DNA of 17,219 bases from an uncultured Faecalibacterium sp. (GTDB taxonomy: Bacteria; Bacillota; Clostridia; Oscillospirales; Ruminococcaceae). A program made the position numbers and the translations under genes. This document shows, one piece after another, positions 2,307-17,219 of this stretch. Location: the NCBI GenBank assembly GCA_934525325.1, contig CAKSZE010000036.1, positions 1 through 17,219 on the forward strand, given 5' to 3'. Within the stretch, counting starts at the first letter, position 1. Each line of letters opens with the position of its first letter. The notes beneath the pieces are model-generated. The model worked only from the letters and a program-made list of their open reading frames with translations. It did no database searches and was not told the origin of the DNA.

Positions 2307-2320
2307 AAATGATACACCAT

Positions 2321-2353: not shown

Positions 2354-2360
2354 GTGGCAG

Positions 2361-3770: not shown

Positions 3771-3786
3771 TAATGATTTGAACCGG

Positions 3787-3827
3787 AGCACCGCATATTC
3801 TCGCCCGAGAGTATGCGGTGCTTTTTT
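3787..3827 (+). terminator. Intrinsic terminator of galE
   Basis: A 17-bp stem (3787-3803 with 3806-3822, one G-T wobble, two-base loop) is followed by TTTTT. Confidence 0.93.
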
Positions 3828-3963
3828 ACCCCCTCAGTCTCGCTGCGCTCGCCAGCTCCCCCAAGGGGACGCCTTTCGGCGCTGCCGCAAAGTTTCCCGC
3901 CACTGCTAAAGCCGTCCCCTTGGGGAAGGTGGCTGCGAACGCAGTGAGCAGACGGAAGGGGTA
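3827..3963. repeat. 137-bp MITE-like element with TACCCC/GGGGTA ends
   Basis: The element begins TACCCCCTCAG and ends CGGAAGGGGTA. Each end carries a CCCCAAGGGG/CCCCTTGGGG palindrome in an arm that is an imperfect inverted copy of the other. The right 60 bases (3904-3963) are identical to 732-791. The left end overlaps the T run of the galE terminator. No coding capacity. Confidence 0.75.
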
Positions 3964-3982
3964 AACTCCCCCACATTTTCTA

Positions 3983-4011
3983 TTGACATCCGCTAGTAGT
4001 TAGTCTATACT
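3983..4011 (+). promoter_or_regulatory. Sigma-A-type promoter of feoAB
   Basis: A perfect -35 TTGACA (3983-3988), a 17-base spacer and a -10 TATACT (4006-4011). The start codon is about 58 bases downstream. Confidence 0.85.
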
Positions 4012-4033
4012 ACATTTGTTAACACGGACTAAC
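3999..4033. promoter_or_regulatory. Candidate metal-responsive operator at the feoAB promoter
   Basis: GTTAGTC (3999-4005) and GACTAAC (4027-4033) are an inverted pair flanking the -10 box, and TAGT-CTAT-ACTA forms a smaller dyad over the -10. TTAG/CTAA half-sites are typical of DtxR/IdeR-type iron regulators. The spacing of the larger repeat is not the classical one, so the identity of the binding protein is inference. Confidence 0.4.
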
Positions 4034-4069
4034 ACATAAGAATGGTACATATAAAGAGGGCAGACGGAT

Positions 4070-6412
4070 ATGACGTTAAAAGAGTTACAGATCGGCAAAA
4101 GCGCCATTGTGGATGCTGTGGGCGGTGCGGGCGCACTGCGGCAGCATTTTCTGGATATGGGTCTGATCCCCGGGGCAGAGGTCACGCTGGTAAAGCTGGC
4201 ACCCATGGGCGACCCCATGGAGCTGCGCATCCACGGCTATGAATTGACCCTGCGTCTGGATGACGCGGCACAGATCACCGTGACCCCCACCGAAAAGACC
4301 CCGGCGGTGCACGCCCCGGTGGACGGAAAAATGGTGGAGCACCCGGGTCTTGGCGAGGGCGGCAAGTACCACACCAAGGAGGGGGAACATCCCCTGCCGG
4401 AGGATAAGACCCTGACCTTTGCGCTGGCGGGCAACCAGAACTGCGGCAAGACTACCCTGTTCAACCAGCTTACCGGCTCCAACCAGCACGTGGGCAACTT
4501 TCCGGGCGTGACGGTGGACCGCAAGAGCGGTGCCATCAAGGGACACCCGGAGACCGAGGTCACCGACCTGCCGGGCATCTACTCCATGTCCCCCTATTCC
4601 AGCGAGGAGATCGTCACCCGGCAGTTCATCATCGGTGAAAAGCCCACCGGCATCATCAACATCGTGGATGCTACCAACATCGAGCGCAACCTGTACCTGA
4701 CCATGCAGCTCATGGAGCTGGACACCCCCATGGTGCTGGCACTGAACATGATGGACGAGGTGCGCGGCAACGGCGGCACGGTGCGCATCAACAAGATGGA
4801 GGCCATGCTGGGCATCCCGGTCATTCCCATCTCTGCCGCCAAGAATGAGGGTGTGGACGAGCTGGTAGACCACGCCCTTCATGTGGCAAAGTATCAGGAG
4901 CGGCCCGGCCGCATGGATTTCTGCAGTGAGGACGACCACGGCGGCGCGGTGCACCGCTGCATCCACGGCATCATCCACCTGATTGAGGACCACGCCAAAG
5001 CGGCGGGCATCCCGGTGCGGTTTGCCGCCACCAAGCTGGTGGAGGGCGACCAGCGCATTGAGGAAGCCCTGAAGCTGGATCAGAACGAAAAAGAGATGAT
5101 CGAGCATATCATCGTGCAGATGGAGCAGGAGCGCGGGCTGGACCGCGCCGCCGCCATTGCGGATATGCGGTTCTCCTTCATTCAGGAGCTGGTGGCCAAG
5201 ACGGTGGTCAAGCCCCACGAAAGCAAAGAGCAGCTGCGCTCCAACCGCATCGACAAATTCCTCACCGGCAAGTACACCGCCATCCCGGCCTTTATCGCCA
5301 TCATGGGTCTGGTGTTCTTCCTCACCTTCAATGTCATCGGCCTGTTCTTCCAGAACCTGATGGAAATGGGCATCGACGCCCTGACCGGCATCGTGGACAC
5401 GGCGCTTACCAACTGGAACGTCAACGCGGCGGTGCACTCCCTGCTCATCGACGGCATCTTTACCGGCGTGGGCAGCGTGCTGAGCTTTCTGCCCATCATC
5501 GTGGTGCTGTTCTTCTTCCTCTCCATGCTGGAGGATACTGGTTACATGGCCCGTGTGGCCTTTGTGATGGATAAGCTGCTGCGCCGCATCGGCCTTTCCG
5601 GCCGCAGCATCGTGCCCATGCTCATCGGCTTTGGCTGCACGGTGCCCGGCGTCATGGCAAGCCGCACCCTGCCCTCGGAGCGCGACCGCAAAATGACCAT
5701 CCTGCTCACCCCGTTCATGAGCTGCTCGGCAAAGCTGCCCATCTACAGCCTGTTTGCGGCGGCCTTCTTCCCGCAGTATGCGGGCCTTGTGATGGTGCTG
5801 CTGTACTTTACCGGCATCGCGGTGGGCGTGCTGGCGGCACTGCTGCTCAAGAGCACCGTGTTCAAGGGCGAAGCCGTGCCCTTTGTCATGGAGCTGCCCA
5901 ACTACCGCCTGCCCGGCCTGAAAAACGTGGCGCAGCTGCTGTGGGAAAAGGCGCGGGACTTTTTGCAGAAGGCCTTCACGGTCATCTTTGCCGCCACCAT
6001 CGTCATCTGGTTTTTGCAGAACTTTGACCTGCGCCTGTCGCTGACCGCCGACCCGCAGGCCAGCATTCTGGCGCGCATCGCGGGCGATATCGCCCCGCTG
6101 TTTGCCCCGCTGGGCTTTGCGGACTGGCGCATCTCCACCGCCCTCATCACCGGTTTTATGGCTAAGGAGAGCGTGGTGTCCTCGCTGCTCATCCTTTTCG
6201 GCTCCACCGCTGCCCTGACGGCAGCTCTCACCCCGGCGCAGGCCGCGCCGCTGCTGGTATTCTGCCTGCTGTACACCCCCTGCATCGCGGCGGTGGCGTC
6301 GGTCAAGCGGGAACTTGGCGGCAAGTGGGCAACCATCATGGTGGTCAACCAGTGCGCCGTGGCATGGCTGTGCGCCCTGCTGGTGCGTCTGGTCGCCGTG
6401 GCGGTGTTCTAA
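4070..6412 (+). CDS. feoB: FeoA-FeoB fusion ferrous iron transporter
   Basis: This 780-residue inner-membrane protein takes up Fe(II). Residues 1-75 form an FeoA SH3-like domain (LRQHFLDMGLIPGAEV), joined by a linker of about 40 residues to FeoB. The G domain shows G1 GNQNCGKT (121-128), G3 DLPG (166-169), G4 NMMD (226-229) and G5 SAAK (255-258). A helical insert follows, then the membrane domain from about 400, with the two Gate motifs GFGCTVPGVMASRTL and TPFMSCSAKLPIY carrying the conserved cysteines. ATG 4070 is chosen for GAGGG (4056-4060) nine bases upstream; an ATG at 4042 is out of frame. Clear consensus promoter in front and a long terminator behind make it a single-gene unit, followed by a MarR regulator. 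FeoA fused to FeoB is known in some Firmicutes; separate genes are more common. Confidence 0.96.
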   Translation: MTLKELQIGKSAIVDAVGGAGALRQHFLDMGLIPGAEVTLVKLAPMGDPMELRIHGYELTLRLDDAAQITVTPTEKTPAVHAPVDGKMVEHPGLGEGGKYHTKEGEHPLPEDKTLTFALAGNQNCGKTTLFNQLTGSNQHVGNFPGVTVDRKSGAIKGHPETEVTDLPGIYSMSPYSSEEIVTRQFIIGEKPTGIINIVDATNIERNLYLTMQLMELDTPMVLALNMMDEVRGNGGTVRINKMEAMLGIPVIPISAAKNEGVDELVDHALHVAKYQERPGRMDFCSEDDHGGAVHRCIHGIIHLIEDHAKAAGIPVRFAATKLVEGDQRIEEALKLDQNEKEMIEHIIVQMEQERGLDRAAAIADMRFSFIQELVAKTVVKPHESKEQLRSNRIDKFLTGKYTAIPAFIAIMGLVFFLTFNVIGLFFQNLMEMGIDALTGIVDTALTNWNVNAAVHSLLIDGIFTGVGSVLSFLPIIVVLFFFLSMLEDTGYMARVAFVMDKLLRRIGLSGRSIVPMLIGFGCTVPGVMASRTLPSERDRKMTILLTPFMSCSAKLPIYSLFAAAFFPQYAGLVMVLLYFTGIAVGVLAALLLKSTVFKGEAVPFVMELPNYRLPGLKNVAQLLWEKARDFLQKAFTVIFAATIVIWFLQNFDLRLSLTADPQASILARIAGDIAPLFAPLGFADWRISTALITGFMAKESVVSSLLILFGSTAALTAALTPAQAAPLLVFCLLYTPCIAAVASVKRELGGKWATIMVVNQCAVAWLCALLVRLVAVAVF

Positions 6413-6425
6413 ACGCAATCATTAT

Positions 6426-6478
6426 AGTGAAAAAGAGAACCGGCGCGTCCGCAGGACGTGCTGGTTCTCTTTTTCACT
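6426..6478 (+). terminator. Long intrinsic terminator after feoB
   Basis: A 25-bp stem with two G-T wobbles and a GCA loop (6426-6450 with 6454-6478). The A/T-rich base AAAAAG/CTTTTT makes it usable on both strands. Its last base is the first base of the next gene's -35 box. Confidence 0.9.
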
Positions 6479-6506
6479 TGACAACTTCCCTTATCTGCAC
6501 TATAAT
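6478..6506 (+). promoter_or_regulatory. Perfect-consensus promoter of the MarR gene
   Basis: TTGACA (6478-6483), 17-base spacer, TATAAT (6501-6506). Both boxes match the consensus exactly. The start codon is 45 bases downstream. Confidence 0.92.
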
Positions 6507-6550
6507 ACTTCAAAAATGAACTATCCATATAAGAACAAAAGGAGCGCCCC

Positions 6551-6985
6551 ATGAACCCTACCATAGAGATCAGCTTCAAGACTGCGCAGGCCTACAATGC
6601 CATGTGCAAGCCGCTGTGTCAGGAGCTCAAGCTGCCCCAGACCGCCTTTGATATCCTGATGTTTTTAGCCAATAACCCGGACTGCACCACTGCCCGGGAT
6701 ATCGTGGAGATCCGCAAAATTAAGGCGAACCTTGTGTCGGTAAACGTGGATCGTCTGGTGCAGGAGGGGTATCTGGAGCGCCGCGCTGTGGCGGGCGACC
6801 GCCGCAAGACCCAGCTGCTGTGCACCGAAAAGGCGCAGCCGGTCATCGCACGGGGGCGCGAGGTGCAGGAGCGCTTTTTTGCCCGTCTGCTGCAAAACAC
6901 CGATGCCGCCACCCGGGAGGCGTTTTTCCGCACCATGGAGGTCATCGGGAAAAATCTGGACGAGATCCTGCTGCAATTCTCATGA
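6551..6985 (+). CDS. MarR-family winged-helix transcriptional regulator
   Basis: A 144-residue protein with MarR architecture: an N-terminal dimerisation helix (about 5-25), a winged helix-turn-helix at about 28-95 with recognition region KIKANLVSVNVDRLVQEGYLE and a wing containing the conserved DRR (83-85) followed by KTQLLCTEKA, and a C-terminal helical dimerisation segment. Such proteins bind DNA as dimers and usually repress nearby or their own genes. AAAGGAG (6538-6544) six bases before ATG fixes the start. It follows feoAB in the same direction behind a terminator, with its own consensus promoter. A role in iron, redox or drug response is possible but not shown by the sequence, and no obvious palindromic operator overlaps its promoter. 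Confidence 0.9.
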   Translation: MNPTIEISFKTAQAYNAMCKPLCQELKLPQTAFDILMFLANNPDCTTARDIVEIRKIKANLVSVNVDRLVQEGYLERRAVAGDRRKTQLLCTEKAQPVIARGREVQERFFARLLQNTDAATREAFFRTMEVIGKNLDEILLQFS

Positions 6986-6991
6986 TCTATA

Positions 6992-7030
6992 ACAAAAAAC
7001 AGCCAAGCCCGCAGGCTTGGCTGTTTTTGT
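6992..7030. terminator. Bidirectional terminator between marR and tig
   Basis: ACAAAAAACAGCCAAGCC (6992-7009) pairs with GGCTTGGCTGTTTTTGT (7014-7030). A runs on one side and T runs on the other serve the convergent genes on both strands. Confidence 0.92.
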
Positions 7031-7039
7031 ATCTTAAGC

Positions 7040-8344
7040 TTACTTGCTCTCTACCTTTTCCTCAATGGTGGAGTGGTCGATGACCCAATCGGCAGCCTTG
7101 CGGATGCCCTCGTTGCGGCGCAGGGCGGCAACGTCGGTGTTGGCCTTGATCTCCTCGACCGTCTTTTTGGTCTTTTCGGCGCGTTCAGCCAGCTGCTTGT
7201 CGATCTCCTCGTCGGTGGGCAGCAGGTTCTCCTGCTGTGCGATCTGCAGCAGTGCCATGCGGGCGCGGGTGTTCTTCTCTGCGGCGGTACGCACCTTGGC
7301 AGTAAAGCTCTCGCGGGTCTCATGGATCTGGCTCAGGTAGGTGTTCAGGCTCATGCGCTGCATCTGCAGCTGCTGCTGGATGACCTGCATCTGCTGCTGG
7401 TAGGCATTTTCCACCAGAATGCTGGGGATCTCGCCCTCGGCGGCATCCGCCAGCTGACCAAGGATCATGTCCTTGGCGTGGTTCAGCGCACCGCCGTGGC
7501 GGCCGTTGAACAGCTGCTGCTTCACGAAGGCGCGGTACTCCTCCATGGTCTCCTTGCCCATCTTCTTGGCAAAATCGCTGTTCAGGGCAGGCAGCTGACG
7601 CACGCACACGTCATGCAGTTTGATCTTGAACACGACAGGCTTGCCTGCCAGCTCCTTGTTGGGGTAGTTCTGGGGGAAGGTGACGTTGATCTCGAACTCG
7701 TCCCCTGCCTTGTGACCCAGAATGCCGTCCTCGAAACCGGGGATCATGCGGCCGCTGCCCAGCTGCACCGACTGGTCCTTTGCCGTGCCGCCCGCAAAGG
7801 CCACGCCGTCCAGAAGACCCTCAAAGTCCATGTGCACCACGTTGCCCTTTACAGCGGGGCCCTTGTGGGGCACCAGTTCTGCGGCGTAATTGCGGCGGCG
7901 CTCCAGCACCGTGTCGATCTCCTTGTCGGTCACCTCCGGGGTGACGCACTGGGAGGTAAAGCCGGTGGTCTTGGTCAGCGTCAGCTCGGGCTGCAGCGCC
8001 ACGGTGGCGGTAGCCACAAAGCCCTCGTCCTTCTTCACGCTTACCAGATCGTAGCTGGGATCATCTACCGGCGCAAAGCCGTGTTCTTTCAAAGCAGCCT
8101 CGTACAAAGCAGGCACATCCTGATCCATCAGGTCGTTGATGGCATCGTACCAGAAGGTGTGCTCGCCGCGGTCAGCCTCGATCTGTGCGCGGTCGGCCTC
8201 GCCCTTCTGGAAGCCCTTGATGGTATAAGTGGCGCGGGTGCGCTCATAGACCGCGTTGGAGGCGGCCTCCAGTTCCTCAGCCGTAGCGCTGAAGGTCATT
8301 TTGCAGACACTCTTTTCAGGAGTTTCCACGCTTACCAGTTTCAT
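7040..8344 (-). CDS. tig: Trigger factor, ribosome-associated chaperone and prolyl isomerase
   Basis: A 434-residue cytosolic chaperone that meets nascent chains at the ribosome exit. The N-terminal ribosome-binding domain (1-115) carries a degenerate signature, GFQKGEAD at 44-51, where most trigger factors have GFRxGKxP. An FKBP-type PPIase domain follows at about 165-247 (VHMDFEGLLDGVAFAGG, LGSGRMIPGFEDGILG, FPQNYPNKELAGKPVVF), then the helical C-terminal substrate cradle. The start is placed at 8344 because GGAGGG (8353-8358) lies eight bases upstream on this strand. A longer in-frame reading back to 8518 adds 58 residues unlike the family and runs through the promoter. It is divergent from sdaAB and convergent with marR. 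Confidence 0.94.
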   Translation of the reverse strand: MKLVSVETPEKSVCKMTFSATAEELEAASNAVYERTRATYTIKGFQKGEADRAQIEADRGEHTFWYDAINDLMDQDVPALYEAALKEHGFAPVDDPSYDLVSVKKDEGFVATATVALQPELTLTKTTGFTSQCVTPEVTDKEIDTVLERRRNYAAELVPHKGPAVKGNVVHMDFEGLLDGVAFAGGTAKDQSVQLGSGRMIPGFEDGILGHKAGDEFEINVTFPQNYPNKELAGKPVVFKIKLHDVCVRQLPALNSDFAKKMGKETMEEYRAFVKQQLFNGRHGGALNHAKDMILGQLADAAEGEIPSILVENAYQQQMQVIQQQLQMQRMSLNTYLSQIHETRESFTAKVRTAAEKNTRARMALLQIAQQENLLPTDEEIDKQLAERAEKTKKTVEEIKANTDVAALRRNEGIRKAADWVIDHSTIEEKVESK

Positions 8345-8444
8345 AGGATCTACCCTCCGTGTTGTTCCCTTGGCGGCGGGGCGGCACTGCAAAGGCAGCA
8401 GCCGGAACGCCATTTTGGGGACATTTTCAAACATTAGTAAAGTT

Positions 8445-8453
8445 ATTATAGCA
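8445..8453 (-). promoter_or_regulatory. Extended -10 promoter of tig
   Basis: On the minus strand TGC-TATAAT forms an extended -10 about 100 bases before the tig start codon. The -35 region is poor. Confidence 0.6.
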
Positions 8454-8471
8454 CAAGTGCAGCAAAAGCGG

Positions 8472-8477
8472 TATAAT
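8472..8477 (+). promoter_or_regulatory. Possible -10 box for sdaAB-sdaAA
   Basis: TATAAT on the plus strand, 124 bases before the sdaAB start, back to back with the tig promoter. No clear -35 is seen, so the assignment is weak. Confidence 0.35.
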
Positions 8478-8600
8478 AAACTTGATAAAAATGTGCCGTT
8501 TTGGCAATTTTTGTCCATTCAAGCAGGAAAAAAGCGCGTTTTGCGGCAGTAGCTGCCGCGCAAAAGTGGGAAACCCCTCAGGAAAGGAAGGCTGTCCCCT

Positions 8601-9281
8601 ATGCGATTATTTGATGTTCTGGGCCCGGTGATGATCGGACCCTCTTCCAGCCACACCGCCGGTGCGGCAAAGATCGGCTATACCGCACAAAAGCTTCTGG
8701 GCGAGGTTCCGGCGCAGGCAGACATCGGCCTGTACGGCAGCTTTGCCACCACCGGCAAGGGCCACGGCACTGACCGCGCCTTGGTGGCGGGGCTGCTGGG
8801 TCTGCGCCCGGACGACCCCCGCCTGCCGGACAGCTTTGCGCTGGCTGCGCAGCAGGGAATGCAGTTCAGCATCCACCCGGTAGAACTGCGCTCTGCCCAC
8901 CCCAACACCGCCGTGCTCACCCTGACCAGCCGCACCGGGCGGCAGCTCTCGCTCAAGGCGGCATCGGTGGGCGGTGGACGCATCCGCGTCACGGAAATTG
9001 ACGGCGTCCCGGCAGATTTCGGCGGGGACAGCAACACCCTCATCATCCACAACGAGGACACCCCCGGCTGCATTGCCGAGGTGACTATGGCGCTGGCGCT
9101 TCGGCGCATCAATATCGCGTCCATGCAGGTGTTCCGCGCCGCCGCGGGCGGCTATGCGGTGATGGTGCTGGAGTGCGACTCCCACATCCCCCACGCGCTG
9201 GAGCGGCAGCTGGCGGTAATGCCGGGCTTGCTGAAGGTGACCTGCCTGAACGTGGACGAGCCGGAAGAAACGGAGGAATGA
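8601..9281 (+). CDS. sdaAB: L-serine dehydratase, iron-sulfur-dependent, beta subunit
   Basis: A 226-residue subunit of the Fe-S L-serine dehydratase, which converts L-serine to pyruvate and ammonia in the cytosol. The N-terminal signature GPSSSHTAGA (13-22) and the GTDRALVAGLLGL stretch (56-68) identify the beta domain. A C-terminal ACT domain occupies about residues 147-220 (TLIIHNEDTPGCIAEV, INIASMQVFRAAAGGYAVMVLE). In related enzymes this kind of domain is regulatory. GGAAAGGAAGG (8581-8591) precedes ATG by nine bases. sdaAA begins three bases after its stop, so the two subunits are co-transcribed and probably translationally coupled. The two-gene arrangement is typical of Bacillus/Clostridium-type enzymes, whereas E. 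coli has a single fused chain. Confidence 0.95.
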   Translation: MRLFDVLGPVMIGPSSSHTAGAAKIGYTAQKLLGEVPAQADIGLYGSFATTGKGHGTDRALVAGLLGLRPDDPRLPDSFALAAQQGMQFSIHPVELRSAHPNTAVLTLTSRTGRQLSLKAASVGGGRIRVTEIDGVPADFGGDSNTLIIHNEDTPGCIAEVTMALALRRINIASMQVFRAAAGGYAVMVLECDSHIPHALERQLAVMPGLLKVTCLNVDEPEETEE

Positions 9282-9284
9282 GCC

Positions 9285-10160
9285 ATGGCATTTTTGTCCT
9301 GTGAAGAGATGCTGGCTGCCGCCCGCAGCCAGAAAATTTCGCTGGCAGAAGCGGTGCTGCGCAGCGATCTGGAAGAGAGCCGCCTGACCGAGGCGCACAG
9401 CCGCGCCGCCATGCGGCATTTGTGGCAGGTAATGCAGGCCACCAGTCAGGAATACGACCCCGCACAGCGCAGCCGCAGCGGCCTTTCCGGCGGCGATGCC
9501 GCCAAGGTGGAGCAGGCGTGGCAGCAGGGGCGCTTGCTGGGCGATGATTATCTGGCAGCCGTCACGGCAGAAGCCCTAAAGACCGCCGAGTGCAACGCCT
9601 GCATGAAGCGCATCGTAGCCGCGCCCACGGCGGGCAGCTGCGGGGTGCTGCCGGCGGTGCTGCTGCCGCTGGCCCGCGCCGGACAGGCAGACGAGGACGC
9701 CGTCTGCGATGCGCTGTATGTGGCGGCAGGCTTCGGGCAGGTCATCGCCGCCCGCGCCACGCTGGCGGGCGCAGAGGGCGGCTGTCAGGCCGAGGTAGGC
9801 GCTGCCAGCGCCATGGCCGCCGCCGCCCTGTGTAACCTGAAGGGCGGCACCCCGGAGCAGTGCGCCGCCGCCGCCGCCATGGCACTGGGCAACCTGCTGG
9901 GGCTGGTCTGCGACCCTGTGGCGGGTCTGGTGGAAGTGCCCTGCATCAAGCGCAACGTGGTGGGCGCGGTGAACGCGGTCTCCTGCGCCAATATGGCGCT
10001 GGCTGGGGTGGACTACGCCATCCCCTGCGACGAGGTCATCGACGCCATGGGGCGCGTGGGAAGTCTGCTCTCCCCCGACCTGCGTGAGACCGGTCAGGGC
10101 GGCCTTGCCGCCACCCCCACCGGCGTAAAAATTGCCCGTCAGCTGGCGCAGGAGGACTGA
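9285..10160 (+). CDS. sdaAA: L-serine dehydratase, iron-sulfur-dependent, alpha subunit
   Basis: The 291-residue catalytic subunit that carries the oxygen-sensitive [4Fe-4S] cluster and, with SdaAB, deaminates L-serine to pyruvate. Family motifs are CNACMKRIVAAPTAGSCGVLP (103-123), GGCQAEVGAASAMAAAAL (165-182), CDPVAGLVEVPCIKRN (209-224) and NAVSCANMALAG (230-241). Cysteines C167, C209 and C220 are the likely cluster ligands by analogy; this was not tested. The length is normal. GGAGGA (9272-9277), inside the end of sdaAB, serves as ribosome site. A weak hairpin follows the stop. Confidence 0.95.
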   Translation: MAFLSCEEMLAAARSQKISLAEAVLRSDLEESRLTEAHSRAAMRHLWQVMQATSQEYDPAQRSRSGLSGGDAAKVEQAWQQGRLLGDDYLAAVTAEALKTAECNACMKRIVAAPTAGSCGVLPAVLLPLARAGQADEDAVCDALYVAAGFGQVIAARATLAGAEGGCQAEVGAASAMAAAALCNLKGGTPEQCAAAAAMALGNLLGLVCDPVAGLVEVPCIKRNVVGAVNAVSCANMALAGVDYAIPCDEVIDAMGRVGSLLSPDLRETGQGGLAATPTGVKIARQLAQED

Positions 10161-10162
10161 GC

Positions 10163-10185
10163 CGGAGCGTTGCCCCGGATTTTAT
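10163..10185 (+). terminator. Weak terminator-like hairpin after sdaAA
   Basis: CCGGAGC and GCCCCGG pair around GTT with one mismatch, followed by ATTTTA. The stem is short and the T run brief. Confidence 0.4.
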
Positions 10186-10324
10186 GAGAAACCGGATGCC
10201 CACCCGCATATAGGCGCAAGGCGTGCAGGAGGTTCTGCCCCTCTCTTATAGACAGACTGCACAGGAAAAACCAATAGTTTTGTGCATCTGCACCTGCCGT
10301 ATCCTCCGCCCGGCGGCTGCGAAC
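10186..10324. other. Intergenic stretch between sdaAA and tRNA-Arg, no gene seen
   Basis: No reading frame with a ribosome site. TGCAC...GTGCA enclosing AAAAC/GTTTT (about 10258-10285) can fold, and several GC-rich short dyads follow. Nothing here matches an RNA family I can name. Confidence 0.4.
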
Positions 10325-10345
10325 CGGCTGTAAAAGCCGCTTTTT
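10325..10345 (+). terminator. Candidate intrinsic terminator upstream of tRNA-Arg
   Basis: CGGCT-GTAAA-AGCCG followed by CTTTTT. The short stem with a good T run may end readthrough from sdaAB-sdaAA or an unrecognised small RNA. Confidence 0.5.
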
Positions 10346-10440
10346 GCGCCGGGACGGAAGAAGGTTTACAGAAAAAACGCAGTAAAATCAAAGAAAAGAC
10401 GTTCTTTTTCGAAAAATATAAAAATATTTTAAAAAAGCTG

Positions 10441-10469
10441 TTGACAAACCCCGCCCTTCGTGATAAAAT
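10441..10469 (+). promoter_or_regulatory. Promoter of tRNA-Arg
   Basis: TTGACA (10441-10446), 17-base spacer, TAAAAT (10464-10469) preceded by TG-A, so it is also an extended -10. The tRNA begins 26 bases after the -10. Confidence 0.85.
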
Positions 10470-10494
10470 ACATCATGTTCCGAACGGAACGTAT

Positions 10495-10571
10495 GCGTTG
10501 GTAGCTCAGCTGGATAGAGTGACTGACTACGAATCAGTAGGCCGGGGGTTCGAGTCCCTTCCATCGCACCA
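10495..10571 (+). tRNA. tRNA-Arg (anticodon ACG), integration site of the mobile element
   Basis: The cloverleaf is complete. It comprises acceptor GCGTTGG (10495-10501), D stem GCTC/GAGT, anticodon stem ACTGA/TCAGT with loop CTACGAA (anticodon ACG at 10529-10531), a five-base variable loop, T stem GGGGG/CCCTT with loop TTCGAGT, 3' acceptor strand CCATCGC, discriminator A and encoded CCA. Pair 4-69 is T opposite T, and two T-stem pairs are G-U. All three weak positions involve bases in the last 12 of the stems. The integrase gene lies just beyond the 3' end in opposite orientation, the usual layout for integration into a tRNA 3' end. Confidence 0.95.
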
Positions 10572-10577
10572 GAAAAT

Positions 10578-10609
10578 GCCGTGAAATCGAAAGATTTCAT
10601 GGCTTTTTT
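10578..10609 (+). terminator. Intrinsic terminator after tRNA-Arg
   Basis: GCCGTGAAATC pairs with GATTTCATGGC (one wobble) around GAAA, followed by TTTTTT. If recombination occurs within the tRNA 3' end, this terminator belongs to the inserted element. Confidence 0.9.
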
Positions 10610-10626
10610 GTTTTGTAAGCCATGGG

Positions 10627-10655
10627 TGCACGGTTTCTGCACGGTTTTTGCACGG
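10627..10655. repeat. Three phased TGCACGG direct repeats, candidate integrase arm sites
   Basis: TGCACGG starts at 10627, 10638 and 10649, each separated by exactly 11 bases (about one helical turn). The first two are followed by TTT. They lie between the tRNA and the integrase gene, where attachment-site arm sites are expected. Function is inferred from position and phasing. Confidence 0.5.
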
Positions 10656-10682
10656 TCGGTGTTATCCATGTCCGATGATGTA

Positions 10683-10718
10683 GGGCGCTGTATTGCATTG
10701 CAATCAGTGCCCTTTTTT
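10683..10718 (+). terminator. Plus-strand terminator facing the integrase gene
   Basis: GGGCGCTG pairs with CAGTGCCC (one mismatch), inside which ATTGC-ATT-GCAAT forms a perfect inner stem. TTTTTT follows at 10713-10718. It would stop transcription from the tRNA side before it runs antisense into the integrase. Confidence 0.8.
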
Positions 10719-10721
10719 GCA

Positions 10722-12110
10722 TCAGGTGAGCAGTGCCAGGCGGAGCTTTGCCTTCATTTCCGGGTCGGCATCCTTGAGCAATTCCAGCAGAGCCGTCATG
10801 GAGATGGTGGGTTCGCCTGCGGCGGGTACAGCCTGCGGGCTGGGGGTGTCGGGCTTGGCATAGAAGCCGCTTTCAAACTTCTTGCCCAGCTCCACACGGG
10901 AGGACTGCTGGATATGGGCGTAGGTGTTCACCAGCATATCCGCACTGGCGTGACCGGTGGTCCCCTGCACCGCCTTGATGTCACCGCCGGAGATCATCAA
11001 CTGGTAGGTGGCACTGGAATGCCGCAGACCGTGAAAGACGATGCGGGGAAACTCCGGGTGTGCGTCCTGCCATTTCAGGAACTTCTTGCGGATGAGCACC
11101 GGCTCCACCGCCAGACCGTTGGGGAGCCGCAGCAGCATCCCGCTGTTGCGGTACCGCTCCGGGTCGAGGGCTTCTTCCCTTTTCAAGCGTTCCAGCCACT
11201 GCTTCAGTTCCTCCCGCAGGGCGGCGGTCATAAAGATGGTGCGGCAGGAGGCTTCCGTCTTGGTGTCCTTCAGGATGAGGGAGGTCTTGCTGCCCTCCAG
11301 CTTGTCCGGGAAGATGCGGAGGATGCAGCCCTTGTCCACCTGCGCCAGCGTGTCCTTCTGCACCCGCTGCATGGAACGGTTGACGGTGAAGGTGCCCATG
11401 CCGTTGGCGGCATCAAAGTCGATGTCCTCCGGGGTCAGACCTGCCACCTCCCCTTCCCGCAGCGCACCCACCAGCGTCAGGTGCACCGCCAGATGGAGGA
11501 TGGGGTCCTCCATGCTGTCCAGCGCTGCCCGCATCTCCTCCACCTCCCAGATGCTGCGCTCTTGGGTGGTCTTTTTGGGCGCTTCCACCGGGACAGGGCT
11601 TTTGATGAGGATGCCCCACTCCACCGCCAGCAGAAAGGAATTGTGCAGCAGCTGGTGGACCTCATGGAGGGTGGTGCCGGAAAGGGTGCGCTTCTGCTGC
11701 TTGGGCGAGAGGTCTCGCCGCTTGCCGCCCACATACTGTCCGCAGGGGGTCTTGCTCAGGGTGTCGTACAGGGCTTCGATGTGGTAAGGCCGCAGTTTCT
11801 GCATCTGCATTTCCCCGATATAAGGGATGATGAGGTTCTGGATAAGGGCCAGATTGGACTGGTAGGTCTTGGGTGCCCACTTGTGCTTGCTGCACTGCTT
11901 GGGCAGCCAGTCCATCAGGAACTCTGCCACCGTCACCGTGGACGGGATCAGGAAGTTGCCGGTCGCCAGCTCATGCTCGATCTGCTTCTGGCGTTTCACC
12001 GCCTCCTCTTTGGTGGGAAAGCTCTCCCATTTGTCGCAGCTCTTGCCGTGCTCGTCCTGATAGGTGTAGCGGACACTGTAAGAGCTGCCGCGTTTCGTGA
12101 TATATGCCAT
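10722..12110 (-). CDS. int: Site-specific tyrosine recombinase (integrase)
   Basis: A 462-residue tyrosine integrase of the type found on Gram-positive integrative elements, catalysing integration into and excision from the tRNA site. An N-terminal arm-binding-like region (about 1-50, ITKRGSSYSVRYTYQDEHGK) is followed by a SAM-like core-binding domain (about 60-165) and the catalytic domain. Visible active-site residues are R218 in GALREGE, a lysine in the beta-hairpin region near 282-284, H360 and R363 in HGLRH, H387 in TGH and nucleophile Y397 in NTYAHI. AAGGAGG lies seven bases before ATG. It is the last gene of the minus-strand element operon, directly after the HTH excisionase-like gene (15-base gap), and ends 150 bases from the tRNA. 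Confidence 0.95.
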   Translation of the reverse strand: MAYITKRGSSYSVRYTYQDEHGKSCDKWESFPTKEEAVKRQKQIEHELATGNFLIPSTVTVAEFLMDWLPKQCSKHKWAPKTYQSNLALIQNLIIPYIGEMQMQKLRPYHIEALYDTLSKTPCGQYVGGKRRDLSPKQQKRTLSGTTLHEVHQLLHNSFLLAVEWGILIKSPVPVEAPKKTTQERSIWEVEEMRAALDSMEDPILHLAVHLTLVGALREGEVAGLTPEDIDFDAANGMGTFTVNRSMQRVQKDTLAQVDKGCILRIFPDKLEGSKTSLILKDTKTEASCRTIFMTAALREELKQWLERLKREEALDPERYRNSGMLLRLPNGLAVEPVLIRKKFLKWQDAHPEFPRIVFHGLRHSSATYQLMISGGDIKAVQGTTGHASADMLVNTYAHIQQSSRVELGKKFESGFYAKPDTPSPQAVPAAGEPTISMTALLELLKDADPEMKAKLRLALLT

Positions 12111-12125
12111 AGATTTGCCTCCTTA

Positions 12126-12431
12126 TCAAGCTGCCCGGTAGAGCCACGCATCGAAGCTGTCTTTCGGGATGCGGATGCTTCCGCCTGCCCGCAGGACACG
12201 GAATTCGGTGGTGCTGTTGCACAGGTTGTAGGCGGCACGCTGGCTGATGGCCAGCATCTGTGCGACCTCCTTCACCGTGTACACCAGCTTTGTGGTCTCA
12301 GGGCTGTTGGTCGGAGACTTGACGGCATTGGTTCGAGTGACCACCTCCATTGTAGCCGGATCAGAGTCCGACTGCAAGAACTTTTTCGTATAATCCAAAG
12401 ATTTCACATTCTCGTACATTTTATTACACAT
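12126..12431 (-). CDS. Excisionase-like helix-turn-helix protein
   Basis: A 101-residue protein whose C-terminal half (about 50-97) is a MerR/excisionase-type helix-turn-helix: VYTVKEVAQMLAISQRAAYNL, then a wing FRVLRAGGSIRIPKDSFDAWL. Small proteins of this kind, next to an integrase, steer recombination toward excision and bind near attachment sites. The N-terminal 45 residues are polar and probably unstructured. The start at 12431 is chosen over an in-frame ATG at 12437 because AAGGAG lies eight bases upstream of the former and only two from the latter. It sits 12 bases after the relaxase stop and 15 before the integrase start, within one operon. It could alternatively be a local transcription regulator. 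Confidence 0.8.
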   Translation of the reverse strand: MCNKMYENVKSLDYTKKFLQSDSDPATMEVVTRTNAVKSPTNSPETTKLVYTVKEVAQMLAISQRAAYNLCNSTTEFRVLRAGGSIRIPKDSFDAWLYRAA

Positions 12432-12443
12432 AGGCATTGCTCC

Positions 12444-13418
12444 TTACTTATCGTGGCGCATCGCAGGCTCCTGCGTGCGGTTCTCATAGAATCGAATGAC
12501 CTCCGGCGGGATGCTGTCCAGCGTTTTCAGGGCGGCTTCATAGTCCTGCCGCAGCTTGGTATCCTCCAGACGCTTCAAGACGCTCCCTTCCTTCGCTTTG
12601 TCCAGCGAGGCAGAGAGCGTCCTGTTCTTCTCTTTTAACTTTTCATTTTCGGCGGCGGTCTTGGTGAAGGCTACGTTGTACTTTCGCAGCTGGTCCTTCA
12701 TCCGTGCTACGTTGGGGATATAGCTGTCCAGTACCTTGCTGATCTCTGCCGCACGGCTCTTGCCGTTGAAGGGAGTGATGCCCACCAGAAGGGCATCCAG
12801 TTGCTCCTTCTGCTTGATCAGCTGGGTCATCTCCTTGAAGATGCGGGGCGGGATGTGCTCCCGCCCGGTCTGGCTGGCGCTTTCGCCCCGTTCCAGTTCC
12901 GGGTACTGCTTGACCATGTGCTGCCAGAACTCGTCCTGCCACTTCACAAGGTTTTTGCGGTTGCCGATGATCTCCTTGGCGCTCAGCCGTCCGTCAGGGG
13001 TCAGGGGCACAAAGCAGAGGTGCAGGTGGGGCGTTTTCTCGTCCATGTGGACAACGGCAGAGAGAAAGGTATCCGGGCGCTGTCTGCCCTCTAAAAATTT
13101 CAGGGCGTACGCAAAGTACGCCTTGATTTCGCTGTGCGTCTTGCCTTTGAAAAACTCCGGGCTGGCGGTGACGAGTGCCTCCACCACTCGCACGCTGTCC
13201 TTGCGGACACGGCAGTGGGCGGCGGCTATCATGCGGTCGGCTTCTTCCCGGTACCTGCCCTGCGGCTGCACCAGATGGAGGTTGTAGCGGCTCCGGTTCG
13301 TGTTGATATCCGGGTTGCTGGCGTACTGCTCCTTGGTGCGCTCGTTGTGGGCTTCGATGGGGCTGATGGCAGGCCCCTTGTATTTTTTGAACCTTAAAAT
13401 GCCGTATTGGGCTTTCAT
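12444..13418 (-). CDS. MobV-family relaxase (Pre/Mob plasmid recombination protein)
   Basis: A 324-residue mobilization protein expected to nick one strand at an origin of transfer and lead it into a recipient through a conjugation machine supplied by another element. The N-terminal relaxase domain shows motif I with HNERTKE (24-30), NRSRYNLHL (41-49), and the metal-binding motif III HMDEKTPHLHL (124-134), followed by FVPLTPDGRLSAKEIIG. The C-terminal part (about 240-310) is rich in Lys, Glu and Leu and probably coiled coil. It is somewhat shorter than many MobV proteins. AAGGAG is eight bases from ATG. No type IV secretion genes are seen here, so the element is mobilizable rather than self-conjugative as far as the window shows. 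Confidence 0.9.
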   Translation of the reverse strand: MKAQYGILRFKKYKGPAISPIEAHNERTKEQYASNPDINTNRSRYNLHLVQPQGRYREEADRMIAAAHCRVRKDSVRVVEALVTASPEFFKGKTHSEIKAYFAYALKFLEGRQRPDTFLSAVVHMDEKTPHLHLCFVPLTPDGRLSAKEIIGNRKNLVKWQDEFWQHMVKQYPELERGESASQTGREHIPPRIFKEMTQLIKQKEQLDALLVGITPFNGKSRAAEISKVLDSYIPNVARMKDQLRKYNVAFTKTAAENEKLKEKNRTLSASLDKAKEGSVLKRLEDTKLRQDYEAALKTLDSIPPEVIRFYENRTQEPAMRHDK

Positions 13419-13440
13419 AGATCACGCTCCTTCTTGGGGT

Positions 13441-13581
13441 GTACAAAAAATCTGTACGGACTTCAAATAACCTGTACGGTTCGTACGGTGTACGGAAACA
13501 TGAAATATAAACGATAACACGTTTTAATTTACTTCAATTTGCCGTACGGGTTCGTACGAGTACAGACCGTACAGGTTGTAC
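13441..13581. other. Iteron-like GTAC array with AT-rich core; candidate ori and/or oriT
   Basis: Ten GTAC cores start at 13441, 13454, 13474, 13483, 13490, 13544, 13554, 13560, 13569 and 13578, most within GTACGG or CGTACG contexts. They form two clusters of five around an AT-rich stretch (13496-13543). The blocks 13474-13495 and 13544-13565 are near direct repeats. An AAACG-ATAACA-CGTTT dyad lies at 13509-13524. The array sits between the helicase and relaxase genes, so it may be the replication origin bound by the replication proteins, the transfer origin, a regulator site, or a combination. Confidence 0.6.
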
Positions 13582-13609
13582 GAACTTCTTCCGTGAAAAA
13601 ATGCACTTT

Positions 13610-14926
13610 TTACGGGCAGGGGTGGACAAGCGGCTCGATGCCTACAAAACCACGCACCCTGCGGCCACCGGGCAGGTAGATATTGTTGGTGGCTTCAAGG
13701 TTATAGCGGCGGTCGTTCTGGCGCAGTTCTGCGCTGAAACGGATGGCCGATACGCTGTGACAGGCGTTGTCCTCACACCACTGCTTATAAATGTCGTAGA
13801 ACTCTTTGGAACTGATGGAGTAGTCCGCCTTGAAGCGGAAATAGCCCTCGGATTCCATGAAGTCGATGACATTGTTGCTGCTGCGCTTGATGGTGTCCAC
13901 GTTGGCGGCGGCTCGTTCGCTGACCGTGAAGCGGAAATCGTTCTGCACCAGCCGGTGCAGCCCTTCCAGACACCAGAGCAGGATGCCTTCTAACTCGGCG
14001 CACATCTTCTCCACAAGGAAGGGGTCGTCCGTGCGGTCGGCAGGCTTGTCCTTGGTGGTCAGGATAAGCTGGCGGCGAAAGAAGCCGTCCGAATGGTCGT
14101 AGAGTGAAGTCAACGCACCGTTGCCGAAACAGAGGAACCGGGCGTAAATATCCCGCTGGTAGCTCTGGACACCCTTGCGCTCCAAGTCCAGCTTGGCTTC
14201 GGCAGTCACGATGGTCTTGATATAGTTGGTCTTGGGCAGGGCGTTCATGTCCATGTCGTCGTCGATCATGAGCAGGCGGCGTTCCAGATCGGCACGGGCA
14301 AAGCGGTTGTTCTCTATCTTCTGGACGCTGCCGTTGCTGGCGGCATCTCCCATGAGCCGTTTTAGCACCAGTCCGATGCGAGACTTGCCCTCGCCGCCCT
14401 TGCCAACGATGAGCATCATTTTCTGCCCCTTGGTGCTGGGGATAAGGCAGTAGCCCAGATACTCCTGTAAGGTGGGGATGTCGGCATCGTCCAGCAGTTC
14501 GTGCAGAAAGGTCAGCCAGCGGTCAGGGCTGGCAGCTTTCGGGTCGTACTTCACAGGCAGGCGGTTCTGGCAGAACAGGCGGCTCTCCTGAAAAGTGCCG
14601 TCCGGCAGATGGTACACGCCGTTCTGGAGGTGGATGCAGTCCTGTTCGATGGGAAACGGGTCGGAAAAGGCCAGCAGCTTGATGGTCTCCAGAATGTTGG
14701 TGACCTTTTTGGACAGGCCGGAGGTGACATATTCCTCGATGTTCTCCAAGATGCGCTGCTTGATCTCGCTCTCGTCCTCCACCGGGCCGTCCAGCGTGTA
14801 CAGCGTTCCGTTGACGCATTTCAGCGGCCACTGTTCCAGAAAGGCGCGGCCAAACTGGACTTCATCGATCTTCTTGCCGTTGTACCAGTCCGGCCATAAG
14901 GGGTTGCGGGCAATGTTTTTCTTCAT
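13610..14926 (-). CDS. P4/D5-type SF3 replicative helicase
   Basis: A 438-residue superfamily 3 helicase of the phage P4 alpha / poxvirus D5-like class that unwinds DNA at an element's own origin. The N-terminal D5_N-like region (about 1-165) lacks primase motifs. Then come Walker A GKGGEGKS (175-182), Walker B LLMIDDD (218-224), sensor-type motif FLCFGNG (264-270) and a likely arginine finger GFFRRQ (281-286). The C-terminal segment (about 360-438) resembles the winged-helix DNA-binding tail of these proteins. AAAGGAG is nine bases before ATG. It lies between the CHC2 primase protein and the GTAC array. Together these look like a compact replication module, with primase and helicase on separate chains instead of fused as in P4. 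Confidence 0.9.
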   Translation of the reverse strand: MKKNIARNPLWPDWYNGKKIDEVQFGRAFLEQWPLKCVNGTLYTLDGPVEDESEIKQRILENIEEYVTSGLSKKVTNILETIKLLAFSDPFPIEQDCIHLQNGVYHLPDGTFQESRLFCQNRLPVKYDPKAASPDRWLTFLHELLDDADIPTLQEYLGYCLIPSTKGQKMMLIVGKGGEGKSRIGLVLKRLMGDAASNGSVQKIENNRFARADLERRLLMIDDDMDMNALPKTNYIKTIVTAEAKLDLERKGVQSYQRDIYARFLCFGNGALTSLYDHSDGFFRRQLILTTKDKPADRTDDPFLVEKMCAELEGILLWCLEGLHRLVQNDFRFTVSERAAANVDTIKRSSNNVIDFMESEGYFRFKADYSISSKEFYDIYKQWCEDNACHSVSAIRFSAELRQNDRRYNLEATNNIYLPGGRRVRGFVGIEPLVHPCP

Positions 14927-14949
14927 AGGGCAATTCTCCTTTGGGAAAG

Positions 14950-14986
14950 TGAAGTGGTGGGTCTCACGGTGAGACCTGCCACTTCA
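14950..14986. promoter_or_regulatory. Intercistronic stem-loop between primase and helicase genes
   Basis: TGAAGTGG/CCACTTCA encloses GGTCTCA/TGAGACC, separated by a TG/TG internal loop and closed by a three-base loop. No T run follows on either strand, so it is not a standard terminator. It lies in the 73-base gap just before the helicase ribosome site and could influence mRNA processing or translation. Confidence 0.6.
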
Positions 14987-14999
14987 GGTGAATAAATTA

Positions 15000-15695
15000 T
15001 CAGGCGCACTTTGCCAGAGCAAGGCGGTCGGTGCGCTCCTCCAGCATCAGCAGGTACGACCCGGACAGCAGCCGTGCAGCGGCATCGGCCTTCTGCTGGG
15101 GAGTTCCAAATGCAACGCAGTCCGTCAGGTACTCGATGGTCTCGGTCATGTGGAGGGCTTCCACAAACCGTTCGTCCTGCGGTTCTTCCGGGCTGGTGGG
15201 CTTATAACGCTCCCGCCAGTCATGCAGCAGGTCGAGATAATCGGTCAGTACCCGCAGGCAGTAGGCGATGTCTGCCCACTGCTCGTCTGTCAGGCCGCGC
15301 TTGGGCGGCGGCAGAGCGATGGCATTGGCGGGCGGCTTGTCCGGGTCAAGCCAGAGCTTGTCGGGGCAAGGCCCCTCCATCTTGCTGACGCAAGACCGCT
15401 CTGTCACTTGCAGTCCCCACTGGGGACTGCATTGCTTCGCAAACGCGAAGTCATGCATCAGCTTTTCGGCGGCTTGCCGGGGGTTCAGGCCGAACAGCTT
15501 GGCGGTGAGGTCGATGGCATCGCCGTTGGCTCCACAGCCAAAGCAGTAATAATAGTTGTCGTTCAGCTTCATGCTGGGGTCGCTGTCGGAATGGAACGGA
15601 CAGCACACCATGTCATGGCGGTCGGGCTCCATGCCGTACATCTCTCCCACCTGCCGAACGGTGATGGCGGACTTGATCTTTTGATATAAACTCAA
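15000..15695 (-). CDS. CHC2 zinc-finger primase protein
   Basis: A 231-residue protein with a DnaG-type CHC2 zinc-binding domain: CPFH (32-35) and CFGC (51-54), 15 residues apart, within YYYCFGCGANGDAIDLTAKLFG. It has no TOPRIM catalytic domain, so it resembles the stand-alone CHC2 proteins of integrative elements that help primer synthesis or recognition. The start is set at TTG 15695 because CAAAGGAG (15701-15708) lies five bases upstream, giving MSLYQKIKSAITVRQVGEMYG, which looks like family N-termini. An ATG at 15749 in the same frame lacks a ribosome site. Residues about 82-112 are encoded by four consecutive DNA hairpins and look like an in-frame insertion. It heads the minus-strand operon. 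Confidence 0.85.
   Translation of the reverse strand: MSLYQKIKSAITVRQVGEMYGMEPDRHDMVCCPFHSDSDPSMKLNDNYYYCFGCGANGDAIDLTAKLFGLNPRQAAEKLMHDFAFAKQCSPQWGLQVTERSCVSKMEGPCPDKLWLDPDKPPANAIALPPPKRGLTDEQWADIAYCLRVLTDYLDLLHDWRERYKPTSPEEPQDERFVEALHMTETIEYLTDCVAFGTPQQKADAAARLLSGSYLLMLEERTDRLALAKCA
15363..15450. repeat. Four consecutive hairpins inside the CHC2 coding sequence
   Basis: GGGGC-AAG-GCCCC (15363-15375), CTTGC-TGAC-GCAAG (15381-15394), TGCAGTCCCC-ACT-GGGGACTGCA (15409-15431, ten-base perfect arms) and CTTCGC-AAAC-GCGAAG (15435-15450). The reading frame stays open through all of them. Confidence 0.7.
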
Positions 15696-15757
15696 AATTT
15701 CTCCTTTGGTCAAAGGTTTTGGCACGGACCATTTTGATCCCTGCCACATTCAAAGGC

Positions 15758-15964
15758 ACCGGAGTTCCCCAAATGAGAACTTCGGTGAAGCCGGTCTCCC
15801 TTGCTGCCTCCCGACAGGAAATCTTTTTGGACTCTGTGTCGGCCCCATGCAGGGCGCTCGCTCCCCCGATGGGAGGTCTTGGCGGTCTGGGCAGTTCGGA
15901 CGGTCATTCTGTTCTCAAGGTCCTGTTATGAAAGATATTTCAGAGGGCTTTCGCGGGAAGCCCT
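15758..15964. other. Structured non-coding gap upstream of the primase operon
   Basis: No credible gene is seen; short frames on both strands lack ribosome sites. Foldable pairs include ACCGG/CCGGT with AGTTC/GAACT inside (15758-15795), CCGACA/TGTCGG (15811-15842) and AGGGCTT/AAGCCCT (15944-15964). As the leader of the minus-strand operon and the space facing the XRE gene, it may hold a regulatory RNA or leader. Confidence 0.45.
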
Positions 15965-15996
15965 TAATATGTTCGCTGCTGGGGAGTTAATATGTT
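15964..15996. promoter_or_regulatory. Paired TTAATATGTT repeats, candidate operator
   Basis: TTAATATGTT occurs at 15964-15973 and again at 15987-15996, 23 bases apart, between the divergent operon and the XRE gene. The position suits binding sites for the element's repressor; the role is inferred. Confidence 0.4.
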
Positions 15997-16091
15997 TTCT
16001 TTCTGTCTATAGGATAGCACCGCCATGGCCGCTGTGCCGTATATCCATAATGTAGGAAAACAGGTGCAGAAACTGCAAAATTCCACGCTTA

Positions 16092-16120
16092 TGGACAGGA
16101 ACCGCCGGAAGTGGTATACT
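16092..16120 (+). promoter_or_regulatory. Promoter of the XRE regulator gene
   Basis: TGGACA (16092-16097), 17-base spacer, TATACT (16115-16120). ATG follows 26 bases later. Confidence 0.85.
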
Positions 16121-16146
16121 GTGCAAAAAACATCGGAGGTGCGACC

Positions 16147-16962
16147 ATGAACATCAAGCTGACACTGGGAGAACGGCTCAAAGACCTGCGTGTGGAACGG
16201 GATCTGAAGTTGGAAGCTTTGGCAGAGCAGACGGGTCTGTCCAAATCGGCACTGTCGAAATACGAGGGCGACGATGTGACAGACCTCAGCATTTATGCGG
16301 TGACAACGCTGGCTGAGTTCTATGGCGTGACCACGGACTACCTGCTGGGCGTGACAGAAAACAAAAAACGCCCAGATGCAGTCCTTTCGGACTTGCATCT
16401 GAGCGACAACGCAGTGGACGTATTAAGGAATGGAAAATTCAATCATCGGCTGCTGTGTGAACTGATCGTGCATGAGAATTTCCAGCGGTTCATGACCGAT
16501 CTGGAGATCTATGTGGATGGATATGTCAGCGCAAACATTCAGAACCTCAATGCTGGTCTGGAAGCGACCCGGCAAATGCTGAAAAAGAAGTATGCAGCAG
16601 ATGAAAACGATCTGTACATGAGCACCTTGAAGCTGGGGCAGATCGATGAAGATGAGTACTTTGGTCGGGTCTTGTATGACGAGTTGGTGGCTATCCTGAA
16701 AAACATCAAGACGGAACACCGCAAGGACAAGACCACTTCGGATGGTTCAATGATCGATAATCTGATGAAGGAACTGGAGGATGCCCAGAAACTTGAAGGG
16801 TCTGCGGATGAAAAGAAGATCCGAACGGCATTGAAGGCAATCGGCATCAACTACGATAAGCTGACAGAAGATGAAAGAAAGCTGATAAAGAAGATTCTTT
16901 ATAAAACGGCAATGCTGAAACCGGGGACACTTGCAGGCAACCGGGGCAAGCATAGGCGATAA
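16147..16962 (+). CDS. XRE-family helix-turn-helix transcriptional regulator
   Basis: A 271-residue protein with an N-terminal Cro/C1-type helix-turn-helix (about 8-68: LGERLKDLRVERDLKLEALAEQTGLSKSALSKYE, then LAEFYGVTTDYLLGVTE). The remaining 200 residues are helical, charged and unassigned. GGAGG (16135-16139) lies seven bases before ATG; an upstream in-frame extension to 16111 would run through the -10 box. It is transcribed divergently from the primase-helicase-relaxase-integrase operon, the typical place of a repressor controlling replication and excision of an integrated element. Base composition is more A-rich than in the neighbouring core genes. Confidence 0.88.
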   Translation: MNIKLTLGERLKDLRVERDLKLEALAEQTGLSKSALSKYEGDDVTDLSIYAVTTLAEFYGVTTDYLLGVTENKKRPDAVLSDLHLSDNAVDVLRNGKFNHRLLCELIVHENFQRFMTDLEIYVDGYVSANIQNLNAGLEATRQMLKKKYAADENDLYMSTLKLGQIDEDEYFGRVLYDELVAILKNIKTEHRKDKTTSDGSMIDNLMKELEDAQKLEGSADEKKIRTALKAIGINYDKLTEDERKLIKKILYKTAMLKPGTLAGNRGKHRR

Positions 16963-17163
16963 TCATTTGCCCTGCGCTTTATGGGGAAAAACGCTGCTGC
17001 GGCAGGAAGGGAAACGTACACCATTGGTTCCTCTTCAAGCCTGCGCTGGGTGGGCAAAGACCGTCAACTGCCACGCCCATCCGCGCATCCTTCTGCCGCA
17101 GAACAGGTGCTTGCCGGAGCCTCTCGCAGCCCCTTTTCCGCATCAGCCGGAACCAAGGTGTAA
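16963..17163. other. Stretch after the XRE gene, no convincing gene
   Basis: A 60-codon plus-strand frame (16981-17163) has no ribosome site and a composition unlike a protein, so it is not called. Nothing else was recognised before the hairpin at 17164. Confidence 0.4.
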
Positions 17164-17193
17164 CACACTAGACTTTGCAAGCAAAGTCGTGTG
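17164..17193. repeat. Strong dyad near the window's right edge
   Basis: GACTTTGC-AA-GCAAAGTC (17171-17188) is a perfect stem. CACAC/GTGTG extends it outside a two-base TA bulge. No T run follows, so it is not a plain terminator. Confidence 0.6.
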
Positions 17194-17219
17194 CCAACGA
17201 GCGTTCCGCCGCTCTTTGG

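Follow-up and report, generated by a model that had tools for sequence, protein, structure and literature searches.

An array of GTAC-cored iterons downstream of rep as candidate replication origin of an integrative mobilizable element from Faecalibacterium

A stretch of 17,219 nucleotides from an uncultured Faecalibacterium sp. (GenBank assembly GCA_934525325.1, contig CAKSZE010000036.1, positions 1 to 17,219; referred to as the window) harbors, as far as it shows, an integrative mobilizable element (IME). Between the gene for its helicase, rep, and the gene for its relaxase, mob, an array of GTAC-cored sites is located, which is very probably the replication origin of the element and bound by Rep. 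An iteron-type origin is strongly supported, because the positions of the sites are conserved, the array is tied to Rep, the predicted Rep fold resembles that of SaPI5, and the array is kept after loss of rep. A sequence-only reading had proposed a candidate undescribed origin at this place. The origin part of this proposal is strongly backed by comparison, but the kind of origin is already known from phage-inducible chromosomal islands (PICI) and Staphylococcus aureus pathogenicity islands (SaPI); "undescribed" may hold for the element and the iteron sequence.

Anatomy and conservation of the array

Ten GTAC sites are present within positions 13441-13581, five on each side of an AT-rich core. 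The 191-bp intergenic region between rep and mob contains ten GTAC tetramers, while 20,000 dinucleotide shuffles yielded 1.77 on average and seven at most. Elsewhere in the window, 141-bp stretches clear of 13441-13581 have no more than three. The features of the array and of the adjacent rep gene are as follows.

13419..13609, no strand: candidate replication origin (ori), the whole rep-mob intergenic region
13441..13493, no strand: rep-distal iteron set, inverted relative to the rep-proximal set; GTAC at 13490, 13483, 13474 and 13454 (conserved) and 13441 (variable)
13494..13543, no strand: AT-rich core of 50 bp, presumed to melt; 33 of 34 distinct relatives have the same core length, with variable sequence
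13502..13518, minus strand: best conserved stretch of the core, TTATCGTTTATATTTC-like; a similar motif occurs again in families with CGCCC iterons
13544..13581, no strand: rep-proximal iteron set; GTAC at 13544, 13554, 13560, 13569 and 13578, each kept in at least 33 of the 34 distinct relatives
13610..14926, minus strand: rep, superfamily 3 (SF3)/P4-primase C-terminal/D5-type initiator helicase (D5_N/DUF5906; primase_Cterm above the NCBIfam cut-off; predicted fold)
13613..13840, minus strand: rep codons 363-438, C-terminal domain, presumed to bind the iterons; a winged helix as read from the predicted secondary structure (Pox_D5 below cut-off)

The count of ten sites in 141 bases, five per side, agrees with the sequence-only reading, while the AT-rich stretch, given there as 48 bases, measures 50 bp (72% AT in the window). 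The inner blocks had been described as near direct repeats 70 bases apart. Such a repeat exists (28 nt, 71% identity, spacing 71), but an inverted arrangement fits better, with arms of 25 nt showing 80% identity, and the two sets are mirror-like. Relative to the core centre, the centres of the nine conserved sites are at -61, -52, -43, -37 and -27 on one side and at +27, +34, +43 and +63 on the other. The commonest form of the site is [T/C]GTACGG when the right-hand sites are reverse-complemented.

The six proteins of the window were compared with 106 loci (designated L), and the DNA following rep was then extracted. For the alignment, 46 sequences were used, 33 beside a rep gene with at least 97% identity and 13 beside a rep remnant, representing 34 distinct sequences; more distant rep genes were excluded. 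GTAC is found in all 34 at seven of the nine sites and in 33 at the other two. Variable positions are present in 3 of 36 GTAC columns versus 53 of 92 other columns between the first and the last site; for the rep-less sequences alone (n=12), the corresponding values are 2/36 and 34/92. A lack of conserved GTAC cores in similar elements, named in the sequence-only reading as one finding that would refute it, was not observed, nine sites being conserved in place. The tenth site (13441) occupies the window position in six of the 34 sequences, all six with the window-type mob; the aligned rows comprise 170 nt, and L013, a possible seventh carrier, ends inside this site. In elements with the other mob type, a GTAC site is located slightly further on.

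Association of the array with Rep

Usable rep genes were available for 103 loci, some of them fetched twice, with 71 distinct downstream sequences. Covariation was analyzed for 30 loci with distinct downstream sequence and a recognised mob within 4.5 kb. Similarity of the DNA downstream of rep correlated with Rep identity (r 0.97, partial 0.97), a value reached by none of 2000 permutations. For Mob identity, r was 0.36 and the partial correlation 0.14. The array was kept in pairs that share Rep but differ in Mob (cosine 0.76, 77 pairs), and pairs alike in both gave 0.80 (79 pairs), while the value was 0.16 for pairs unlike in both (147 pairs). Repeats were abundant in the 200 bp immediately following rep, with a median z of 2.9 across 30 Rep clusters and values above 3 in 14 of them. 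The last 200 bp of rep exceeded this value in none of the 30 clusters, and the next two 200-bp blocks in five and three, respectively. The repeat unit differs from one Rep family to another.

Two other proteins of the element had to be considered as partners of the array, the relaxase and a regulator of the XRE family. The features relevant for these possibilities are listed below.

12444..13418, minus strand: MobV relaxase gene, by family searches
16111..16962, plus strand: XRE-family regulator gene, divergent from pri-rep, by family searches
17159..17188, minus strand: site beyond the XRE gene and apart from the array, resembling an origin of transfer (oriT); inverted repeat GACTTTGC...GCAAAGTC followed by TAGTGTG/TTA

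MobV oriTs are often located directly upstream of mob. Since the array has this location in the window element, it could serve the MobV relaxase as oriT, either exclusively or in combination with ori function, an explanation that appears very improbable. The same array was found beside a relaxase only 25% identical to MobV of the window, and L082 combines a mob2 gene 83% identical to that of L009 with a different Rep and a different array. In addition, a separate oriT-like site was detected. The array does not contain a match to TAGTG[G/T]G/TTA with up to one mismatch, and the only match in the window is at 17161-17170, a motif that we take to resemble the nick region of pMV158. In the window alone, this match is within chance (at least one in 93 of 200 shuffles, up to one mismatch), which leaves room for the array as oriT; the weight of the site rests on its conservation together with the inverted repeat. 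Inverted repeat and motif precede 26 of 32 mob2 genes, in 23 of these 26 at 79-81 bp, with partly overlapping and thus non-independent loci. Only one of 33 genes of the window mob class has TAGTG[G/T]G/TTA upstream, but inverted repeat and a site like 17161-17170 were seen beyond the XRE gene in ten out of ten chosen window-type loci.

An operator for the XRE regulator is the least probable explanation. XRE repressors often bind clustered palindromes, and one XRE gene is present within the window. Located 2.5 kb from the array, this gene is transcribed divergently from pri, and its operator would be expected between these two genes. The same array occurs with the XRE type of the window and with an XRE protein 29% identical to it, and in L144 the other mob type is accompanied by an XRE protein that belongs to the window class (73% identity). 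Both alternatives, which had been named in the sequence-only reading, are disfavoured, because the array does not change when mob and XRE are of distant types, and because both element types have, apart from the array, an oriT-like site of the MobV type.

A third possibility is that Rep binds the array for control, as in copy control or incompatibility, and that replication starts elsewhere. P4 has a second such site, crr, and covariation demonstrates association with Rep rather than initiation. This possibility is improbable, since no second dense GTAC cluster is contained in the window, the constant 50-bp core between inverted sets suits an origin, and the location just 3' of rep agrees with PICI origins.

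Elements without rep

Among 31 Faecalibacterium genomes, 14 contain a conserved 29-base part of the array, with 45 occurrences in total. By hand, after comparison with rep matches and fetched loci, 29 of these places were attributed to rep-carrying elements, of which three are truncated at contig ends and two are broken, and the remaining 16 to elements lacking a full rep. Fourteen of the 16 (L094-L106, L138) have one pri-rep deletion junction in common and retain the array together with about the last 27 codons of rep, which are preceded by the same foreign sequence. Further rep-less examples are L154, an IMG/VR contig, and L153, a virome record (MT836512.1). Array, relaxase, xis and int are kept in L094-L106, L138, L153 and L154 where the contig or fetched stretch extends that far; L098 has lost one array site. 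Compared to L009, L103 lacks positions 4206-6242, that is pri and nearly all of rep, with flanks 92-94% identical in the aligned stretches. Four further rep-less elements have breakpoints within about 5 bp of those in L103.

Loss of rep also occurred independently. In L137, a window-type element, pri-rep is replaced by a frame of 494 aa (L137:4385-5869, minus strand) with a sub-threshold match to CoiA_N; PADLOC assigned no family to this cargo frame. A third, degraded case is L139. That rep was lost repeatedly while the array stayed is as predicted for an origin that acts in cis and is served in trans. Of ten genomes with rep-less elements, nine also have a rep with at least 97% identity, in G006 only as pieces cut by contig ends; the exception is G021, with a rep-less element and no such rep. 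For 22 genomes at least 90% complete, co-occurrence gave a one-sided Fisher p of 0.010, uncorrected for genome relatedness.

The retained rep tail was examined for signs that it is still a protein. In its last 12 codons, variation falls mainly on third codon positions, just as it does in full elements, and several tails are alike in rep-less and full elements. This pattern possibly results from recombination with full elements, and the intactness of the array in rep-less elements could likewise stem from recent recombination of this kind.

From these data a two-level parasite system in Faecalibacterium may be envisaged, for which we rate the chances a little short of even. It would consist of IMEs with a phage-satellite-type replicon and of rep-less IMEs which have lost pri-rep, have kept origin, relaxase, excisionase and integrase, and spread with Rep borrowed from full elements that share the cell with them. 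The origin would then serve as a shared currency, by means of which cargo could be carried by satellites of an element that itself resembles a satellite; the cargo of L153 suggests this. This cargo comprises about 8 kb (1405-9602 of MT836512.1, human faecal virome) in a rep-less element, with look-alikes, as judged by eye, of a DeoR-type regulator, a sugar-acid kinase, aldolases and a TRAP transporter.

Proposed mode of action

Rep, encoded just upstream, would use its C-terminal domain to bind the GTAC-cored iterons. Because of the inverted orientation of the sets, two assemblies facing in opposite directions would probably form. The AT-rich core of 50 bp that separates the sets would then melt, and Rep would load as a hexameric helicase and unwind the excised circle, with synthesis primed by the CHC2 protein encoded by pri or by a host primase. 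The excised circle would thereby be copied before transfer or reintegration.

A number of observations weigh against an origin bound by Rep. The residual correlation between mob and the array is small (partial 0.14), yet it was reached by just 8 of 2000 permutations. Pairs with unlike Rep and similar Mob have a cosine of 0.375 (14 pairs) versus 0.16 for pairs unlike in both. L067 is part of 11 of these 14 pairs; its Rep is 71-72% identical to those of its partners, and it has GTAC sites. Some Rep clusters show a weak repeat excess or none (for example, z of -0.6 for L054, 0.6 for L020 and 0.7 for L051), and the core is just moderately AT-rich in this family (62-74%). A circular form was not found: terminal overlaps are absent from eight contigs (L006, L074, L096, L077, L018, L028, L072, L034) and from six virome records, and no near-identical plasmid record was detected. 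Taken together, the data establish how the array is built and conserved, that it is linked to Rep, and which fold is predicted for Rep; binding, melting and the replication steps, including initiation, direction and timing, are what we infer.

A possible circle junction in L153 was considered and dismissed, since the end of this record matches the non-int end of L103 and of other elements and just a 31-bp arm-like repeat matches the window.

Comparison with known systems

For PICI and SaPI origins, an organization with two iteron sets around an AT-rich region, directly 3' of the gene for the Rep helicase, has been reported (PMC6092414, PMC7581432). The element in the window has the same arrangement, with iterons immediately 3' of rep and two sets around an AT-rich region, and its Rep belongs by family and predicted fold to the D5/P4-type SF3 helicases with an additional C-terminal domain. 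In a structure model of Rep, the best match was the SaPI5 primase-helicase. Also shared are the order primase, rep, ori and a divergent repressor gene upstream (PMC6092414). The differences are an iteron core of GTAC, the position of int, which lies at the distal end on the side of pri-rep instead of that of the repressor, and the presence of int, a xis-like gene, mob and an oriT-like site on the element carrying the array. Furthermore, pri is of the CHC2/DnaG type, unlike the archaeo-eukaryotic primase (AEP) family primases of SaPIbov1 and SaPI5 (PMC7581432).

The Cch2 operon of the staphylococcal cassette chromosome mec (SCCmec) likewise specifies a helicase of the Primase_Cterm/D5_N class with repeats directly downstream, which are bound by the C-terminal domain (PMC7581432). 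That site, a putative origin, has three AAGTG iterons and is accompanied by a polymerase-type primase pair, whereas the array described here has two mutually inverted sets with nine to ten GTAC sites altogether.

RepA of the Vibrio phage-inducible chromosomal island-like element (PLE) is not known to have an SF3 helicase domain. As observed here, initiator and origin of the PLE replicon covary and swap as a module, but PLE RepA binds via a RepA_N domain to three repeats of about 30 bp (PMC8263062). The rep-less forms resemble IncQ satellite plasmids, derivatives with deleted replication genes that depend on a full plasmid; those derivatives evolved as plasmids in laboratory E. coli and a bee-gut bacterium (PMC6925257), whereas the rep-less forms are integrative and found in many genomes.

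Replication of an IME has been reported for SGI1 (Salmonella genomic island 1). Comparative genomics of F. prausnitzii revealed many IMEs and plasmid-like replication genes, the passages concerned leaving origins undescribed (PMC6295017). A PICI-type origin in Faecalibacterium or in a MobV IME was not found in titles and opening parts of abstracts, a coverage from which subscription papers are mostly missing and which leaves absence unproven. The origin is of the known PICI/SaPI-like kind; its setting on an element built for conjugation is not listed in section 2.2 of an IME review (PMC5704250). Replication of phage satellites and of conjugative hitchhikers would be linked by IMEs that are present in multiple copies in a dominant gut commensal. 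The array is also a candidate origin for Faecalibacterium vectors, the natural set of Rep-iteron pairs could be used to learn DNA recognition by D5-type C-terminal domains, and with the rep-less forms it can be tested directly whether one mobile element depends on another.

The element and its relatives

Matches to the window were obtained in genomes of Faecalibacterium. The remaining features of the element are listed below.

10495..10571, plus strand: tRNA-Arg(acg), probable integration site; homology to L001 begins inside the tRNA at about 10532
10722..12110, minus strand: tyrosine integrase gene, by family searches
12126..12437, minus strand: gene for a xis-like helix-turn-helix protein (Pfam HTH_17; just under the NCBIfam excisionase cut-off)
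15000..15749, minus strand: pri, CHC2 zinc-finger (DnaG-like) protein gene upstream of rep, by family searches

From 10722 to 16962, six genes are arranged in the order int, xis-like, mob, rep, pri, XRE, and the window does not reach the right end of the element. These six genes include integrase and relaxase and no conjugation gene. Genes for phage packaging or interference (terS, capsid morphogenesis) are not among them either, although no dedicated search was made. Direct att repeats of at least 11 bp are absent between 10481-10725 and 16901-17219, as are repeats of at least 13 bp in five loci compared; the far end of the element is probably beyond the window. A phmmer search of PDB sequences revealed no relative, only a single chance match (E 0.69), and the three pattern-matching stretches from a scan of IMG/VR with rep were not relatives.

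The TTATCGTT-like motif of the core (13502-13518) is also present in the cores of L056 and L087-L089, whose iterons are of the unrelated CGCCC type. A TTATCG-like motif was seen in 24 of 25 distinct sequences of the window cluster and in seven of eight of the CGCCC clusters (L056, L087-L089). As a cross-family feature it was rejected, since only one of the other 25 clusters has it.

Relatives were also encountered in human faecal viromes. L152 (MT839795.1) is 95-96% identical to 15370-16977 and 17003-17197 of the window, and L148-L151 (MT838581.1, MT838804.1, MT838910.1, MT836739.1) contain rep genes with 47-61% identity. Within pri, about 33 codons (codons 100-132, about 15354-15452) match the DNA between the array and mob2 in L095, L106 and L154 (73%), as if a small mobile repeat had been inserted into pri in frame.
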